A stretch of DNA of 64,000 nucleotides, taken from positions 248,001 through 312,000 of the forward strand of contig JAJTUQ010000002.1 in NCBI GenBank assembly GCA_021399445.1, in the 5' to 3' direction. The stretch is from Xylogone sp. PMI_703 (Eukaryota; Ascomycota; Leotiomycetes). The notes under the pieces are model-generated. The model saw only the letters and a program-made list of their open reading frames with translations. It was not told the DNA's origin and ran no database searches. Positions 13,203 through 52,068 of this stretch are shown in pieces. Every line of letters begins with the position of its first letter. Position 1 is the first letter of the stretch. The position numbers and the translations under genes are program-made.

Positions 13203-14492
13203 TTAGGGATGTCTAGGCCTTTTAGGTCCACGATTAAATATGTCAACTTCTGCTCTTCGCTTTGGAATAACTGGTTGTGCGGGACTGGACGTTCTGGCTC
13301 TTGAGGCTTCTGTTATGCTAGCTGAAGAATAAAGCGCTTTTGAGCTTGGTGCCATAGTGGATTTTGGCCTTTTAATTATGGAGGATATTAGATCTGAAGG
13401 TTTTGTCTGCGGTTTGGATAGAGGGGCGGATGGCGAGGAGCCTCTCTGAGATAACGGTTTTGAATCTGAGTTAGGGCGTCGTATATTATTAGATGTGGAG
13501 GGTGGTCGTGATTTTGGCGCTGCTTCTTCTCCAAATAGGTCATCCAATTCTTCATTTCCATCTTCCTCATCCGAAGATCCGATATATGTCGGTTTCGAGA
13601 TAGCTGACAACTCTCCCTCGGAACCTGAGCTGGGGTTCGTCAAAGCTCGAAGCCGCTGTTCCCTCTCCTCAAGGGATGACACATTGAGAGGTGTCAACCG
13701 ATTTTCATCTATTGTCTTTCTTTTTGTTAATATCCTGACTGGTGGCTCGGCAGCCTTGCGGTGGTCATTGACCATGCCAGTTGGAGCTCTGATCACCTGC
13801 CCAGGCCTTGCCCCGGTCCTATTTACCATCTTACTCCTTTGGCTGATTTCTTTAGCCTCTCTTCGTGCACGCGTCAATACACTCTTGCCATCCGTCATCT
13901 TTGTTTTACTGCCAGCATTCCATGTCAAAACGCTCGGTGTCTCCCTTCCAGAACCTTTCGTTCTTCCAAGAGGTACTCCGCCATTATTTGCAGCCATCCT
14001 GGGATCCTTTGGAACCTTGGGCAAAGTTCGCAAATCCACAACCCTGCTGAGATGGGTCTCTTTTTCCTTTTTGATACCTAGCATAGTATTCCGCAGAACT
14101 TCTTCGTCGCGCGCAACTTCCCTTCGATGCTCCTTTTTGTACTTGCAATAAACCTCGTACCATTTTCGGGGATTTTTTGGTACATAGTTTTTTTCTTTCC
14201 AATTAGGTATGTCTCTGGCGATTAAACCTTTCCACAGTTCCGCGTCTTCGCCCTGGATTTGAGGAGAGTTAAGCTCAATTTGATGAAGCTGTTCTGCAGA
14301 ATCAACGCGCTGAAGAATAGTGCGGAGTTTCCAATACTCGAAATCGCCAACATCAACGAGAGCTGCTATGGTTAGTACTAAGTTTCAAAGTGATACGTGG
14401 AGAAGCCTCTTATACGCCCCACTTTCACACATACCTCGGACATTCTTGATACACGCTCTCGTGCACAAGTCAATAAGAGAAGGGGCAGGCAT
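13203..14492 (-). CDS. ELOA: Elongin A (RNA polymerase II elongation factor SIII subunit A)
   Basis: Elongin A stimulates Pol II elongation and acts as substrate adaptor of an elongin BC-cullin ubiquitin ligase. Two exons (14435-14492 and 13203-14365, 69-nt intron) encode 406 residues. The BC-box SLIDLCTRACI lies at residues 5-15. The elongin-A domain follows, with DFEYWKLRTIL, ELWKGLIARDIPNW and NPRKWYEVYCKYK, the last two forming the F-box-like part. The remainder is a basic, Ser/Pro-rich low-complexity tail with an acidic patch (GSSDEEDGNEELDDLFGEE), probably disordered. I chose the ATG at 14492 because it lies four codons before the BC-box; an upstream in-frame ATG would add residues without similarity. 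A 218-codon open frame on the opposite strand is a shadow of this gene. It shares a promoter with THOC7. Confidence 0.9.
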
Positions 14493-14934
14493 ATTGTATG
14501 CGCGATCTATATTGTTGTAATGTGGAGAAGAGGAACAGAGTAAAGAGAAGATGTAGTTGCTGTATTTATGCAATGACTTCGGTGTTTCGACCGAGTAGCG
14601 CAAGTAGATAACAATTTGGGATACGCAGTCGCAACCACTTAATTTTAAGGATATCTGCCAAGGTATAGCAATTTAAAAGAATAAAATATATGTGCGGACA
14701 TGATTATGAAGTGAAGTCGTTACTGATGTCGACTTAAGAATAGCAGTGAATGCTGTACGTCTGAAGTCGAAGATCCCTGGGTCATAAAGGCGAAGTTAAA
14801 CGGCGAGGTTAATAGGCTTGAGCTTGAGCATTGGCGAGCTAGCGGCCGCATCATCGTCCCTTCAGAATAGCCTTTGCTGAGCTCTGTTCCTGACACTTAT
14901 TCCCAATCTCACTTTCTACCTAAATCAACCTACA
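14493..14934. promoter_or_regulatory. Divergent promoter region, elongin A / THOC7
   Basis: A 442-bp spacer between two head-to-head genes that both work in mRNA synthesis or packaging. A short GC-rich patch (ggcgagctagcggccgcatc, near 14833-14852) sits about 85 bp before the THOC7 ATG. No TATA box is obvious. Confidence 0.45.
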
Positions 14935-16002
14935 ATGGCGTCGTATCAACTCCTTGACCAACGAGAAGAGGACGAATTACACAAATCGCGATTGTTAAAT
15001 GTCGAAGAGAAACCATTCAAACGCATCACGAAGCGATTGTTGACACCAGGCTCTCTGGTTTCAACTCCAAGTAAGCTGCCCACACCACCGCTCGATAACA
15101 CCGAAGATGCCGCTGCACAAGTAGAATCAGAGAACCAGAAGTTACTTGATGAGCGTCGGCAGTTTCGTGAAGATGTACTGCTCGATTTTGCCGCGTTCGA
15201 CAGTAGCATTGCTCGAATTCAGTTCCTCTTCAATAGCAACGAGCGGGAACGAGAGCGTTACAAAGCAGATAAACAACATATTCTGGACACTTCCCAAGCA
15301 GTTAGGGAGAGTACTGTGCAACTGAGAGCTCAATTAGAGGTGGCTAAAGCGACGTTGGAACAGAGGAAGAAATTTGATAAATTGGCGGAAAAGATAACTA
15401 GTAACCGACTTTTGAGGCCACGGGAGGATCAAGAGATAAATTTAAGAAAATTGGAAGAGGAGTGTAAGGAATTGGAACGGGAGAGTTTGACATATTCTCA
15501 GACATGGAAAGAAAGAAGGGAGCAATTCGGCCGCATCGTGGAGGAGGGCATGCAGTTAAGACGACTTATTCGGGATGAGAAAGAGGAGGTAGAGCGAAGG
15601 GAGGGCATGGATGGTGGAGAAGGGGGGGGAGAGGAAGATGGTGAGGTTGGCGATACTGGATCTAGAGAGGCTCAAACGCCTAGACCGGGTAGTCGGAGCG
15701 GTAATGCAACACCTCACCACGATGGCGCCTTACAGAATCTTCAAGATGGAAGTCTAAAACCAGATACAAACCGAATAACGAGTCGTGGTGTCTCACCTAG
15801 TGCATCAGAACTCCATGGAGAAGGGAGAGGTGAAGGGGATGATGCTGTTATGACTGATGCTGGGGCCAAGACCGGTGAAACGACTGTCGCTGATACACCT
15901 ATGGGGGAATCAGTGAACACACCACAGGATATGGCAACACCCAGAATAGCAGTGGATGAGCGGGAGGACGGTGAAACGGAGGATAAAATGGATACCACAT
16001 GA
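14935..16002 (+). CDS. THOC7: THO complex subunit 7 (THOC7/Mft1-like)
   Basis: Component of the THO/TREX complex that couples transcription to mRNA packaging and nuclear export. It is a single exon of 355 residues. The conserved THOC7 core spans about residues 1-220: the start MASYQLLDQREEDELHKSRL, a TPGSLVSTPSKLPTPP segment, then long heptad-rich helices such as EDVLLDFAAFDSSIARIQFL and LRPREDQEINLRKLEEECKE typical of the Tho7 coiled coil. The C-terminal third is acidic and Gly/Thr/Ser-rich (EGGGEEDGEVGD, several TP sites) and probably disordered, so the protein is longer than animal THOC7 (about 200 residues). It is convergent with tubulin chaperone A. Confidence 0.85.
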   Translation: MASYQLLDQREEDELHKSRLLNVEEKPFKRITKRLLTPGSLVSTPSKLPTPPLDNTEDAAAQVESENQKLLDERRQFREDVLLDFAAFDSSIARIQFLFNSNERERERYKADKQHILDTSQAVRESTVQLRAQLEVAKATLEQRKKFDKLAEKITSNRLLRPREDQEINLRKLEEECKELERESLTYSQTWKERREQFGRIVEEGMQLRRLIRDEKEEVERREGMDGGEGGGEEDGEVGDTGSREAQTPRPGSRSGNATPHHDGALQNLQDGSLKPDTNRITSRGVSPSASELHGEGRGEGDDAVMTDAGAKTGETTVADTPMGESVNTPQDMATPRIAVDEREDGETEDKMDTT

Positions 16003-44871: not shown

Positions 44872-46302
44872 TCAGAATTTTGCAATGCTAAATAGATATC
44901 AAGGAAGAAACACATTGTTCTAAAATATATTCCCTCCACTTTTGGATTGACTCCTAGGGACTTACATGGTATCCCCCACTTTGCGATGGCAGGGAACGTA
45001 AATGAGTGGGATGAAGGTTCTAACGAGACTAAAGAGGAAGGAGAGTATGGTAAAGTATGAGGTAGGTCTACGGATAAATGAATATGGAAAATTATTCTTG
45101 GACGGCAATGATTATTATCTGTCTATTTCCATTACCGTAGAATGCCTAGCTTGAGAGAGCTCTCACATTTTTTCTTATTTACACTCGAGTTATTACTGGC
45201 AGCAAACACTTGAATATCTAATCTTCAGAACGGAGCTACAAGAAACACACAGCAAGCACATGAAACTCTACCAAGCAAACCAGCATGTACAAAGTAAGAG
45301 CTAGTCACCATAGTCGAGTATAACTTCAATTGGTGAATAATGTGAGTTCAGGTATAAGCTTAAAGTAGAGTATGCAGTGTACTAATTGGTATAATACCTT
45401 ATATTTAGATATAGTACGCTGTCAAGTTACGTTAATCTTAGATGCAGCATGTGCTGGACCCTCTAGGTGTTGTTGCTCCTCGCAATTGATTTCTGATGAA
45501 TGCAGCTAACTCCGAAGTTAGATGTGTATATTTCTCTCCTCACCATCTCTATGATGCAAGGATAGGGGAGGCAGAATTGAAAAGGAACGGCTACGGATGC
45601 TCCGGTGGAGATCGAATAGCATTTTGACTTGACTCGCCTTGGAAAGCTAATACTGGCTAAGCCGCTACATACTGCAATTCTGGCTGTAGTACGAGTAAAT
45701 GGAGAACGTAAAACAAAATATACGCCATGACTGCCTATGCTCATAAGCATAAAGTTCCGCTTCATACATATGAAGCTTTGAAGAATCCCTAGCATAAAAG
45801 AACCTAGCATCATTTATAGACCGCTTTGGTAGTGAGGTTAAAAAGAGCTAGTACTAGTCTTATGATATAGAGGATTATGAAATTTAATATGTAACGTGAT
45901 AGCGCTGTCTTGTAGAGATACCGTAGTATCCGGTTTCTGGTCTCCATAAAGCAATAGGTGATAGCATCTGTTGGGAGTAGAGACTGTCCGTCCTGTCTAA
46001 TTGCAAGGCTGCGACAATGCCAAGGATTACCGGCAGCGAGAGGATATCATGACTTGTGACAGTGTTGGTGTTACATCCCTGTGGCGCAAGCGGTAATTCC
46101 GGTGTCACTTCCTAATGGAGAACGCTAAAAGGCGAAGCCAACAGCGGCCCGGTACGGCCCTGGAGAGAGACCCAGGAGCGAGGCCCAGGAGCGACCTGGT
46201 CAGTTTTAAATAATTCACATTAAACTCTCCACTTTCACTCAGCACCTACACATTTCCTTTCCATGTACTCCATCTCTCGTCTTGATTCCACGAAGACAAA
46301 CG
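44872..46302. other. Divergent intergenic region before dynamin-like gene
   Basis: A 1.4-kb AT-rich spacer. Near its right end a small GC-rich patch (46140-46200) carries two copies of CCCAGGAGCGA. A 15-codon upstream ORF (46263-46310) overlaps the GTPase start codon. The open frames 45463-45813 and 45884-46108 (both minus) have no domains. Confidence 0.5.
46171..46194. repeat. Short direct repeat in dynamin-like gene promoter
   Basis: CCCAGGAGCGA occurs at 46171-46181 and again at 46184-46194, about 110-130 bp before the GTPase ATG. It could be a paired factor-binding site; no known element is assigned. Confidence 0.6.
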
Positions 46303-46310
46303 ATGGATGA
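46263..46310 (+). other. Upstream ORF overlapping the dynamin-like start codon
   Basis: An ATG at 46263 opens 15 codons that end in TGA at 46308-46310, overlapping the main ATG at 46303 in another frame. If the transcript begins upstream of 46263, ribosomes starting here would terminate just past the main start and could lower GTPase translation. The transcription start is unknown. Confidence 0.4.
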
Positions 46311-49163
46311 TCAACCTACTCTCCATACACCTTCATTGAAGGAACTACAGTCTGATGAACAGACGAAACTTTTGGATGCAGTCGATTCTCTTCGTGCACA
46401 AGGCCTAAGCGATCTCGTTGCTTTGCCTCAGTTGATCGTTTGTGGAGATCAGTCCAGTGGGAAGAGTTCGGTCTTGGAAGCGATTTCCGGGCTGCCATTT
46501 CCCAAGCAAGGCACACTTTGTACACGCTTTGCTACTGAAGTTATTCTTCGTCGAGCCATAGAGGAGAAGATTTCGGTCTCTCTTGTGCCTGGAAAGGATC
46601 GTTCTCAGCAGGACCGAGAAAGGCTCCTTCAGTTCCATACTTCACTAAAAACAAAGGATGACTTTGAAAAGCTATTCGAAAAAGCTAGAGAGGCTATGGG
46701 GCTATCCGCTGATGACAAATCATTTTCAAATGATGTTTTGCGGGTCGAATTCAGTGGTCCGGCTCAATCTCAACTTACTCTTGTGGATCTTCCCGGTCTC
46801 ATTCATTCACAAGATGCCTCTTCGAAAACAAATGACGTTGATTTGGTACATACCCTTGTCTCTCGGTATTTAGAAAGCCCTCGAAGTATAATTCTAGCTG
46901 TTGTGTCGGCAAAGAACGACATTAACAATCAAATTATCCTTCAAAGAGCTCGCCAAGTTGATCCACAAGGCCTGCGAACTCTAGGCATCATTACTAAGCC
47001 TGATACACTAGCTGAAGGATCAAAGAGCCAAAGCGAATTCCTCTCACTAGCAAGAAATGAGATTTTCAAGCTTGCTCTTCAGTGGCATGTTGTGAGAAAT
47101 CTTGATTCAGATAGAGAAAACGATCAGAGTACGCGCGATGACAAAGAGACTTCATATTTTAGACGAAGTAAATTTGGCTCGCTTCCACCTCACACCATTG
47201 GGATTGCATTCTTGCGGTCTCGTCTGAGCAGAATCCTCTTCAATCAGATACGTACGGAACTTCCACGTCTCCTACAAGATATTGAGGCCCAGATCTCAGT
47301 AACAAAAGCTTCTCAGGATAGGCTTGGTCCTGAACGGGACAACGCTGAGAAGAAGAAGAGAGTCCTAATAGAACTTAGTCAATCTTTCCAAAATCTTTGC
47401 CGAGACGCTGTGAGAGGAGATTACGACCATAAGTTTTTCAGGGACGATGAAGACCCTGAAAGGCGGCTGTGTGCAAACATCATGAATATGCATATTGACT
47501 TTGCCGAGAAAATCCGGAAAGAAGGGGCAACCTGGATTATTAAAGATGAAGATGACGATACGAGTCACGAATATGATGAAAAATATAATGAGAAGCTTCG
47601 TACACGTGAGGAAGCTATAATAGAAGCCTGCGCACTTTTGAGACGTAGCCGTGGACGAGAAGTATGTCAATTCTTTGCTATAAATATGGTTTAACGGAAT
47701 ATGTAACTCACTGAACTATTAGCTCCCTGGCCTTCCAAATCCCTTGGTTGTGGGAGAGCTTTTCCGTGAATATAGTCGCCCTTGGGGAGAGTTAGCTCGA
47801 ATCCATATTAGGAATGTGTGGGAAGCCACCGTTAGATTTCTTGAGCTTCTTCTTAAACATCTCGCCGATGATGATACATGTGAAAGGATCCTCCAATACT
47901 TCTTGTATCCGATCATGGAACAAAAGCTTCAGACAGCTTACAACAAACTAGATGAACTTCTCAGCGTCCATGAAGACTATCCTATGACAACAAATAGCAA
48001 TTACATATACAGTAACAAGAGTCGCCGGCAAAAGGATACCGACAAGAGGTCTGAGGCACTCATTGGACTAGGGCAGGATTCAGGTATTACTGGTATCTCG
48101 GATGCTTTGTCAACCATAGATATGGTTACTGCAGAAGAAGCTTTTGATAAAATGAACTCATTTTATGGTGTAAGTCAATCACTGTACAATATCTGTGCAG
48201 GTGTCAGTGCAACTGATCTTATATTTTATTTAGGTAGCTTTGAATTTATTCACCGACAATGTACCCACTCTTGCCATTCAGGGACCAATCATTCGAGGTC
48301 TTGCAGATACGTTTTGTCCTACGGTTGTCTCCTCCATGAATTCCGAAAAGATTGAAGAGATAGGTGGTGAGACCAAAGAAAAAGACCTGGAGAGAAAGTT
48401 TATAACGCAGAAATTGAATATTTTGGAGGATGGCGCTCGCATATGTAGATATTACGCAAAGAGGCCTCAAACTGGTAAGCCTTCTCCCCAAATTCTTGTC
48501 TGGTTTAAATTTTGACTTGTAGGCCACCTGTCAGTTGTAAAACACGAATTCCGACAGCAAGAACCTGCAGGGACTTCCCAGAACGAATCCAAAGCCAAGG
48601 ATATGTCTAAGGAGCCTTCCACATCAAAACACGATCCAGACGGGCAGGTCTTTGGCAAGCCAGTACTTAGCGCGGGTACGAGTTTGTTTGCCAGTAATTC
48701 AGCAGGAGGGCTTTATGGAAATGCAGTACCTAATAAAACTTCTGATTTGGCTGCCAGCAATGCAGCCGGCGGACATTCTGGAAAACCAAAATTCGTTCCT
48801 AGCACTTTCTTCTCTACCTCTAAGCCTGAAGGGGTATCGGAGCCTAAAACAGGTTTTGCAGGCTCTGGAGTATTCGGAAGTGCTGCTCCTGCAAGTCCTA
48901 ACTTATTTGGTGGAGTCAAAAGTGCTACTCCTTCCGGTACCGGTGCATCCGGATCCTCCACCTCCTCGCCAGGCCCTTCAACGTTTGGCAGCTTCGGAAC
49001 CACTAAAGCACCCACCAGTAGCATCTTTGGTGGTACAGCAACTAGCGCCCCAACTGGTGGTCTCTTTAGTAGTGCAGCTACCATCACCACCCCAGCGGGT
49101 AGTGTCTTTGGCGGAATAACAACCAACACCCCAACCCCTAGTCTCTTTACTGTTCAAAAGTAA
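46303..49163 (+). CDS. Dynamin-like GTPase with C-terminal FG-repeat tail
   Basis: Large membrane-remodelling-type GTPase of the dynamin/Mx group. Four exons (46303-47661, 47723-48169, 48234-48474, 48523-49163) encode 895 residues. G1 GDQSSGKSS is at 48-56, the G2 Thr in QGTLCTRFATEV, G3 DLPG at 162-165 and G4 TKPD at 231-234. The middle/stalk region includes GRELPGLPNPLVVGELF, spanning the first splice junction. A short helical segment (about 640-680) sits where the effector domain is expected. The last exon adds about 210 Ser/Thr/Gly/Pro-rich residues with seven Phe-Gly dipeptides (726, 800, 811, 837, 840, 851, 878), in contexts such as SPNLFGG, SSIFGG and GSVFGG, as in FG nucleoporins. There is no transmembrane segment or PH domain. 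The phase-1 junction at 48474/48523 is clean, so the tail belongs to this gene model. An AATAAA lies 70 bp after the stop. Confidence 0.85.
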
Positions 49164-52068
49164 GTGTATTATATATAGCATTCCTCTATCAAACTTTTTA
49201 GCTAATCTGGAAAAGAAAGACAGCAACTAAAAAATAAAGCATTTTCTACTGTGATAGCACCGTGGCAGCCCACTCTGTTGGAAGAGGATGGTAGCAGGTT
49301 CCCAAGTAGTTACCAAAGTATTTGTTTCCAACCCTGCTATCAAAATTTCTCTCATGAGGTAAGCCTGACATGCAACACGGGTTTCCTTAGGGGTACATAT
49401 TAATCATCTTGGATAGGAGCTGAGGCTTGAGGATTACCGAGTCGGAATAAGGTACCCAAAACTAGCGAAGACGTAGCTTGGACAACTATATGATAGACCT
49501 TCTTGGATTGACACTGTGAAATATAGATGTAAGAGTAGAATGTAGGCTTTACCTGTACAGTTGCATTCTTGACTAAGGAATGGTGAGCCTCGTCCTTTGA
49601 AGGAACAATGTTATTGGAGGATAAATAATGTCGTGGGGTTCTGTAAAACCAAGAGTTACCAAGTTATCGTACATCTACTGAGAGACAATAGAATTCTCTA
49701 GGCCTGACTTACTAAACATAAGCAACAGCTCGAAGTATTATGACAATACTATACTCAGTTATTTGATCATCTCCGTATCTACGTCTTCCTGACGTGTTAG
49801 CGGCCCGGCTGCGTAATTAGACGTTGAGCCGCAACTTTCCACTTACAGATATCGTGGCTGAAATCATAGATGTAGCTTCCGTTCTCTCGTTCGCATGTGC
49901 GTCTGAGTGTGTTGAGAACCTTACTTTCCCAACCATTATAATGCATTCTCGTCTTGGCCTCCATCGGTTATCGGTGGCAGGCTGGTCTGCTGCATCATCA
50001 GGCACTGCTTCCCAACGTGCAGATACAGGTGACCCCTATACCAAATAAGGTTGCAGTACGTATACGCCAAGTTAAAGGGGCATTACAACGTATCAGTTGG
50101 ATGGCGGAATACTGAAAGAGGTTTTCCGGACCTGGTGTCCGGCACGATCCACCGGATAATACAGTCTCCTGTATGCCTCGATCATATCTACCAATCGAGA
50201 ACATAATCGGTTTGAGTAGCAGCTCCCTGGTATAACTCAAACGGTGGATTAGTTCGTATATATACTATATTTATAGCCAGTACGGAAAGGAGAGTCTTGC
50301 TTTAGGGTGGTCGGTCAACCAAGGCATTGCCATGAAGTTCCAAAAGTAAATAAAGCACAGGACCTGGCACTAGTAGACGTGACTCGTAGAAGCTTGAAAA
50401 GGTAGTAACATTACCTTTTGACACTGCAATAGAATGCGTTTTAACCCAGCCACATATGGGATTTTGTTAGTGCTTTTCTAAAAGGAAATACCAGACATAG
50501 AATACTATGGTAGAGAGAGAATCGCTATCTATAATTACCAGTTCGTAATTTGAAACGGGTATGAGCCGTGAGGAAGTCTTCTGTTGCACGTGTCAAGCAA
50601 TTTAGCCATTGAACGGCGCCGGATCTACAAGTAGACAAGATCTCGTATTAGAATTAGCTTGGCTTTGCGTGGCCTGGCTCACTTAGCGGATAGAAGCCCC
50701 TGTATGTGGGTCCTGCCCTGAGATCCATAACCCAAAGAGACGGAGACTGCTTATCAAAACTCTAACTTATGGGTCCACCCAGATTCTTGGCCTCTAGTTG
50801 GGTACCTGTCAATCGTAACCGTTGGATGGATTGAGATTGGCAAAAGGGGCAAGCACAGTCCATATGCGCTCTACTGTGTACTAAAAACCTTCACTTCGCG
50901 TTGTTGGTCGTGTCTGTGGATCTCGTCTTTGAGTTCTACATTTAATTCTTGAGGCTTCGGCATTATAAAAGCCTCTTTCCTAACTCAGAGCAACAAAAGT
51001 ATAGAACCATCATCAGACATTAGCTCACTTAATGCGCCTTGGTAAGCATGGGAGCCTCTGCACAGATTTTAGTAATCTCTCTGGGGCATTCACTTCCTCC
51101 TCAGTAGTTCTCCTGCTATGACGTGCTCCACGATATGCCCGAGGGATATCCCTTTACTCTGTATAGTTAGCCGATCGAGCCGACATATGCATGAACGTCG
51201 CCGGTACGTCATACTCAACAATTTTGGGAGCCACCTGATCTTTGAAATTTGTTGCCAGCATTATTGGTAACAACGGGCCAACCCCGGAAGAGCCAACGCC
51301 TACGGTTGTAAACTCCGATCTTTCTCAATGCCGATATCATAGCCGATATCACAGCCGTGCTCCTGGCACACCAGAGCTGAGAAGGCACGGGGAGGACAGA
51401 AAAGTGATCCTGACTGGGTGATTGGGCTGCTGAAAAGAGGACAACTGCATGTCAGATCCTTTTTCGATATGGCCGGCAGCCTATGCGCCGTCATAGGGCT
51501 TGGCATTTCACACTGCCACGATTATACATAGCACGGTATGAAGAAATTCACAGGAAGGCTAGCTTAGCCGGAAAACTTCTAGAACGTGAGGCGGAAAACG
51601 AAGCACAGGATGCTTCAACGGTGAGCCGTGAGTAGACTAGTCCTTGGCATGCAGCTTCCTCCAAACTTCCCATCGCAGTAAGAATCGCGAGCAGGATTGC
51701 CCTATGTGGTCAAACGTCGATGCCTTATTGCCGTATTTTCAGGCATCCGCGGAATTGCTCATGTCTTGGCATCACTTCCGGCCGGCCATCCGGCTACTCA
51801 GGCCCGGCTTGGAAGTTCTCGCGCGGGTCTTGAGTAAAATAAAAAAAATCCATGGCTGTCCATGGTAGAAAGTATATAATCTTCAGGACATCCTGCATTT
51901 TGGGAAAGCTCTTGGCATTGTAACCCCTAATTAATTGAACCCACTGCTACCTAATAAAAACACATTTAAGACTCGTACTCTGCCGCTAGACTTGACAACA
52001 GAATAGAACAAGCTAGTGAAGAGGAGAAGCAAGAGCAGCGAATTCGAGGTTCTATTAGAGTAGCAACC
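49164..52068. other. Intergenic region of 2.9 kb without a supportable gene
   Basis: No domain-bearing frame. A somewhat GC-richer part (49800-50240) carries open frames on both strands (49824-50048 plus, 49817-50005 minus) that I do not recognise. The rest is of ordinary AT-rich composition. The right end should contain the bZIP promoter. Confidence 0.45.

Follow-up and report, generated by a model that had tools for sequence, protein, structure and literature searches.

A Dynamin-Superfamily GTPase with a Predicted Nup98-like FG and GLEBS Tail in the Fungus Xylogone

The window considered here, a stretch of 64,000 nucleotides within contig C12 of the 50.1-Mb genome of Xylogone sp. PMI_703 (25 contigs), encodes a GTPase of the dynamin superfamily that has apparently acquired a module resembling part of the nucleoporin Nup98: a tail with Phe-Gly (FG) dipeptides and, at its end, what is by homology a GLEBS motif, the element through which Nup98 binds Gle2/Rae1. 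The explanation that we prefer overall, with confidence somewhat better than even, is that of an Mx-like, and probably MxF, GTPase that docks at nuclear pores through its Nup98-like FG/GLEBS module. An earlier note on this DNA had proposed that a dynamin-like GTPase bears an FG domain covalently, and the proposal is now supported by fusions within single proteins, by their confinement to one clade and by the addition of the GLEBS motif.

Gene Structure

The gene is longer than previously thought. The earlier note had placed its end at 49163, but the TAA found there (49161-49163) lies inside a GTAAGT splice donor that is followed by two further exons. The stop at 49163 was consequently dropped for a longer model, in which this donor and the two exons add 65 residues, including the GLEBS motif; the gene then extends to 49476 and its predicted product has 960 residues (Table 1). 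Once the first three introns are removed, the reading frame continues without a stop into the FG exon, and with introns 4 and 5 also spliced out the predicted protein terminates in WQPTLLEEDGSRFPSSYQSICFQPCYQNFSHEELRLEDYRVGIRYPKLAKT. Within exon 4, the first FG codons are at 48651-48656 and the last at 49107-49112.

Table 1. Predicted features of the GTPase gene, in window positions
Feature	Positions	Strand	Basis
Exon 1: start codon, G domain, start of stalk; residues 1-453	46303..47661	+	translation, Pfam
G1/P-loop GDQSSGKS, residues 48-55	46444..46467	+	translation
G3 DLPG, residues 162-165	46786..46797	+	translation
G4 TKPD, residues 231-234	46993..47004	+	translation
Intron 1, 61 nt, GTATGT...TATTAG	47662..47722	+	splice signals
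Exon 2: stalk	47723..48169	+	translation, Pfam
Intron 2, 64 nt, GTAAGT...ATTTAG	48170..48233	+	splice signals, relatives
Exon 3: end of stalk / GED-like part	48234..48474	+	translation, AlphaFold2 of relative P0002
Intron 3, 48 nt, GTAAGC...TTGTAG	48475..48522	+	splice signals
Exon 4: disordered FG tail, seven FG dipeptides	48523..49159	+	FG count; disorder predicted for relative P0002
Intron 4, 60 nt, donor GTAAGT, acceptor AGAAAG	49160..49219	+	frame, alignment to P0002
Exon 5: first GLEBS part (WQPTLLEEDG...NFSHE)	49220..49358	+	translation, GLEBS search
GLEBS (Gle2/Rae1-binding) motif, putative; residues 910-954, split by intron 5	49263..49455	+	sequence comparison
Intron 5, 58 nt, GTAAGC...GGATAG; splits the two Glu of HE-ELRLEDY	49359..49416	+	splice signals
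Exon 6: ELRLEDYRVGIRYPKLAKT and stop	49417..49476	+	translation

The splice calls are of unequal strength. The weakest is the acceptor of intron 4 at 49219 (AAAG), which was chosen for two reasons: the frame set by the only consensus donor is maintained, and VQK-QQLKNKAF then aligns with GQK-PQIKAEGL of the relative P0002. Intron 2 is placed differently, at 48174-48237, in the public model of the same gene (P0001, Xylogone sp. PMI_703, 695 aa, 100% identical), which reads GVTLNLF at the junction; our placement is favored because the relatives read EVALNLF, EIAMNLF or EVAMNLF.

The public model also lacks the tail, and this is the chief caveat. Reading through intron 3 gives GKPSPQILVWFKF followed by a stop, which is the exact end of P0001, and the models of three relatives (P0005, P0009 and P0013), compared at the protein level, stop within ~12 residues of the same point. 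Since the public model and apparently those of the three relatives stop in intron 3, a tail-less isoform may exist, and with it transcripts ending before the tail exon, which the earlier note had named as grounds for refuting the fusion; the stop may represent either a shared annotation fault or an isoform switch. Could the tail, then, lie outside the main product? Intron 3 would in this case usually be retained, the working protein would be a GTPase of ~695 residues, and the FG and GLEBS exons would belong to a minor isoform. The coincident end points speak for such an arrangement. Against it, among the best 120 of 6338 matches the models of 10 relatives reach the GLEBS motif (one of them its first half only), and the invariant residues of the motif are kept across relatives; conservation of this kind needs translation. 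Retained introns are, moreover, a frequent fault of gene models. We regard a tail confined to a minor isoform as improbable.

Two other features of the window may be recorded. A 13-base unit (GGCCCAGGAGCGA) occurs three times at 46156-46194, ~110 bases before the start codon, and this array is the sole tandem repeat found in the window. A gene for THOC7, a subunit of an mRNA export complex, lies at 14881-15999, beside an Elongin A gene at 13203-14381; it is ~30 kb from the GTPase gene and hence probably unrelated to it.

The GTPase Core

The earlier reading of a complete dynamin G domain, with intact G1, G3 and G4 motifs and a stalk, agrees both with the motifs listed in Table 1 and with the Pfam matches of the window protein: Dynamin_N at 1.6e-30 (106.7 bits against a cut-off of 27) and Dynamin_M at 1.7e-20 (73.9 bits against 28.5). 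With G1, G3, G4 and stalk all recognizable in its sequence, the protein is a member of the dynamin superfamily. No PH family appears among its Pfam matches up to E=1.

Among solved structures of the superfamily, the core is nearest to Mx. The best matches are eight MX1/MX2 sequences, at 181-196 bits, compared with 156 for Vps1 and 147 for Drp1; a comparison of folds also places Mx nearest, by small margins, and finds the dynamin fold complete. In a tree of the GTPase domain (30 rows, unrooted, with several long branches, and with L023 and L025 absent), three rows that we labeled Mgm1/Dnm1/Vps1-type (L016, L017 and L019) split off with an SH-aLRT of 99, and MX1/MX2 fall between these and the fungal group, so that placement in an Mx clade depends on the root. 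The sequence comparisons suggest that the GTPase probably belongs to the recently named fungal MxF proteins, described as uncharacterized (PMC11789081).

A more domestic role can be imagined for such a protein: a housekeeping dynamin of the nuclear envelope, in which the module brings a membrane-remodeling GTPase to pores or envelope, where it would serve in assembling pores, in nuclear division or in repairing the envelope. Drp6 of Tetrahymena, found at the nuclear membrane, is a precedent (PMC7946437), and the complete dynamin fold is compatible with this function. The core is nearer to Mx than to dynamin or Drp1, however, and Mx proteins are said to act independently of host membranes (PMC11789081). 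In addition, among the relatives sampled from the best 120 of 6338 matches, the FG tails are confined to a single clade, which is unusual for a basic function. We consider the housekeeping role quite unlikely and retain the Mx-like reading.

The FG-Repeat Tail

Seven Phe-Gly dipeptides had been reported in the tail. The count is exact (residues 726, 800, 811, 837, 840, 851 and 878) and exceeds that of shuffled sequences: the 205-residue tail has 7 FG against a mean of 2.2 in shuffles (P = 0.0015). Likewise, the context is charge-poor, as had been stated, with 6.7% charged residues in 761-895. In a six-frame scan of the window for open stretches of at least 60 codons, this tail is the only one with at least 4 FG in ~110 aa. 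The Pfam Nucleoporin_FG match, at 23.1 bits, is below the curated cut-off of 32.2; for this reason the FG assignment rests on the counts, on the relatives and on a search with the tail alone. The AlphaFold2 model of the relative P0002 has an ordered core and predicted disorder over 674-960, with a single ordered island, a helix at 973-985, that falls on the GLEBS motif.

Several simpler origins of the tail were tried and rejected. A chance low-complexity sequence is ruled out by the shuffles, the relatives and the six-frame scan, and a separate nucleoporin gene downstream is ruled out by relatives that have GTPase, FG and GLEBS within one annotated protein. Neither is the FG tail a general trait of the dynamins of this genome: none of 12 other dynamin loci examined carries an FG-rich stretch or an ELRxxD(Y/F) motif; five weaker places (C17:3510, C1:7157631, C1:4497077, C20:5847642 and C19:4249709) lie beyond this set.

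The GLEBS Motif

The identification of the C-terminus comes from several comparisons. Nine C-termini, that of the window protein and those of eight relatives, were chosen for holding (S/T)xEE(L/I)R and aligned as a profile (P0036 was omitted as near-identical to P0018); their invariant columns are I, S, E, E, R and L. Searched against the PDB, this profile gave 12 matches at E up to 10, of which the top eight, at 6.5e-8 to 1.9e-6, are all Nup98, and the next is at 0.087. Seven of the eight are named Nup98, and the remaining one, 7byf_B, takes its name from its peptidase domain; it is the GLEBS of Nup98 (PMC12666860).

Two further searches are independent of the selection of these nine C-termini. 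Used alone, the P0002 tail (residues 760-993) matched six further proteins at E<=1e-3; five carry PF04096, the autopeptidase domain of Nup98, each aligned through GLEBS. The best match of all was P0121, an HSP90-like ATPase with the same FG and GLEBS module. In turn, the GLEBS of P0121, used as a query against the whole genome at E<=10, found two places: Nup98 (1.2e-10) and window positions 49257-49361, in exon 5 (0.049).

The window motif can also be compared with the genome's own Nup98, where the GLEBS reads YQNICFQPAYQKWSPEELRLVDY; in the GTPase it reads YQSICFQPCYQNFSHEELRLEDY. Aligned with each other, the two score 111; no score above 45 arose in 2000 shuffles, and 24 of the 45 aligned residues are identical, as counted in the alignment. 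In human Nup98, E201 and E202 (E154 and E155 of yeast Nup116) form salt bridges with Rae1/Gle2, and reversing the charge of the Nup116 pair breaks its association with Gle2 (PMC3783196). The Gle2-contacting Glu pair is present in all nine GTPase rows of our alignment.

Other tools returned less. The Pfam GLEBS model, PF21240, stayed under its cut-off of 27 in eight of eight queries, with 19.3 bits at best, and gave no listing at all for three of six full-length queries (P0002, P0003 and P0014). Run over the genome, it found neither this gene nor the genome's own Nup98, and reported one unrelated place at E=0.9; it gave nothing for P0122, a protein named Nup98-Nup96. Because it misses these Nup98 proteins as well, the model appears insensitive to fungal GLEBS. 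Residues 950-1000 of P0017, used as a query, recovered only themselves, among 2 candidates. A search of the genome's DNA for the pattern EE-L-R-x-x-D-Y, which is blind to the intron-split motif of this gene, gave four places, one of them Nup98, and five in the reversed control.

Distribution among Relatives

How widely does the fusion occur? A protein search had been suggested for this purpose, and it finds the fusion in single annotated proteins of other fungi, with query coverage of 97% for P0002 and 99% for P0003. The relatives were taken from the best 120 of 6338 matches; leaving out P0001, which is the same gene, and 48 that end before core residue 640, a tree of 72 rows was built from 71 relatives and the window protein, with SH-aLRT values by the quick method.

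At least 4 FG are found in the tails of 19 of the 72 rows (18 relatives, from the best 120 of 6338, and the window protein), and in each of the 19 the count is reached by at most 10 in 1000, or at most 3 in 300, shuffles. All 19 fall in one clade of 26 rows with an SH-aLRT of 100, and the other 46 rows all have fewer than 4 FG; among the relatives sampled as the best 120 of 6338 matches, FG tails are thus restricted to one clade. It includes Cadophora and Pseudogymnoascus (Leotiomycetes, as is Xylogone) and Trapelia (Lecanoromycetes). The GLEBS motif is present in the annotated models of 11 of the 26 clade rows (again from the best 120 of 6338), counting P0008, whose model breaks off within its first half. 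Seven clade rows have fewer than 4 FG: P0005, P0009 and P0013, with tails of at most 10 residues; P0010, with 53; P0007, with 91; P0021, with 130 residues and no FG; and P0011, with 213 residues and two FG.

On a long branch outside this clade is P0120, a distant metagenomic relative of the dynamins, with three FG in a Ser/Gly-rich tail at ~670-861. This is a chance level, as 0.11 of shuffles reach the count.

A Possible Function at the Nuclear Pore

What could such a protein do? With its FG stretch the protein might penetrate the FG barrier or associate with transport receptors, and Gle2 (Rae1), a WD40 protein, would be bound by the GLEBS hairpin. Were the stalk to assemble in a GTP-dependent manner, as it does in Mx and dynamin, FG tails and Gle2-binding sites would be displayed in large numbers at the pore or close to it. 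The sequence shows the GTPase with its stalk, the FG tail and the GLEBS motif with its glutamate pair; docking at the pore through Gle2 is inferred, and we think it likely. The likeliest use would be Mx-like: foreign nucleic acid or RNPs, such as those of a mycovirus or retroelement, would be gated or restricted in their passage or export. As a free GLEBS is not neutral, an assembling GTPase that bears one could gate export locally. This restriction role is advanced tentatively, with expectations short of even.

The other carrier of the module deserves attention here. P0121 is a metagenomic ENA record of 1201 aa, an HSP90/sacsin-like ATPase (SACS at 1.1e-5, below its Pfam cut-off; HATPase_c_3 at 7.5e-5) in which 21 FG and then a GLEBS lie within the chain, at residues ~590-952. 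None of the five homologues of its ATPase in the Xylogone genome has an FG-rich stretch. This one record suggests that the FG and GLEBS cassette may be portable. Taken further, the two parts would be a transferable, Nup98-derived cassette placed on fungal immune-type NTPases (the Mx-like GTPase and P0121), which serve as self-docking pore guards or as decoys of Nup98; the GTPase would polymerize at the pore via Gle2 and there stop foreign RNPs or, in infected nuclei, the export of mRNA, and retention of intron 3 might switch between free and pore-docked isoforms. We offer this larger scheme as a speculation that is rather unlikely to hold in full.

A variant with decoy as the main function should be weighed separately. 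FG and GLEBS would here imitate Nup98 as an integrated bait, so that proteins of viruses or mobile elements that attack Nup98-Gle2 bind the GTPase, which assembles and disables them, and docking would be secondary. Several unrelated animal viruses target RAE1-NUP98, and the structures 4OWR, 7VPG/7VPH and 7BYF have viral proteins on the RAE1-NUP98 GLEBS (PMC12666860). The Mx-like core and the occurrence of the same module inside the unrelated P0121 would fit a bait as well, with the reservation that P0121 is one metagenomic record. The tail, however, is old and common to a clade, and decoys often turn over fast, as in plant NLRs; moreover, we know of no fungal virus protein that binds Gle2-Nup98. 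A bait as the primary function therefore receives a low probability from us, and pore docking by an Mx-like GTPase remains our preferred reading.

If this reading is true, the parts of Nup98 that bind at the pore have been incorporated into an Mx-like GTPase in a fungal lineage, which would provide an independent test of the pore-guard idea for Mx-type GTPases. MX2 is the precedent that an Mx GTPase can act at the nuclear pore, for reasons that are debated. The uncharacterized fungal MxF proteins would gain a concrete hypothesis, that of Gle2 binding and pore localization, and FG and GLEBS parts would be in use outside nucleoporins. In the open-access literature, with subscription journals mostly outside its scope, we found no dynamin or Mx protein described as having FG repeats or a GLEBS; the open-access papers found to mention dynamin and GLEBS together concern brain ageing and rhabdoviruses.

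Comparison with Known Systems

Four systems invite comparison. The first is Mx itself, with animal MX1/MX2 (MxA/MxB) and fungal MxF. What anchors MX2 at the pore is an N-terminal triple-arginine motif with affinity for FG nucleoporins, NUP98 and NUP214 among them (PMC6264145). The GTPase described here itself bears FG repeats and a C-terminal GLEBS, and would need no motif for binding an FG-nucleoporin partner. The second is Drp6 of Tetrahymena, also dynamin-related and at the nuclear membrane, which is brought there by a domain with affinity for cardiolipin-rich bilayers and not by a nucleoporin-like tail (PMC7946437).

The third is Nup98/Nup116. The GTPase resembles these nucleoporins in having an FG tail with GLEBS, but it lacks the autoproteolytic domain PF04096, the single locus of which in this genome is the separate Nup98 gene on contig C19. 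The number of repeats also differs, with 7 FG in the GTPase tail and 45 in the open frame of the genome's Nup98, as does the position of the GLEBS, which is C-terminal here and within the N-terminal FG region in Nup98. A GTPase, too, is attached to these parts in the Xylogone protein. The fourth, P0121, has both FG and GLEBS as well, with an ATPase as partner domain and the module inside the chain.
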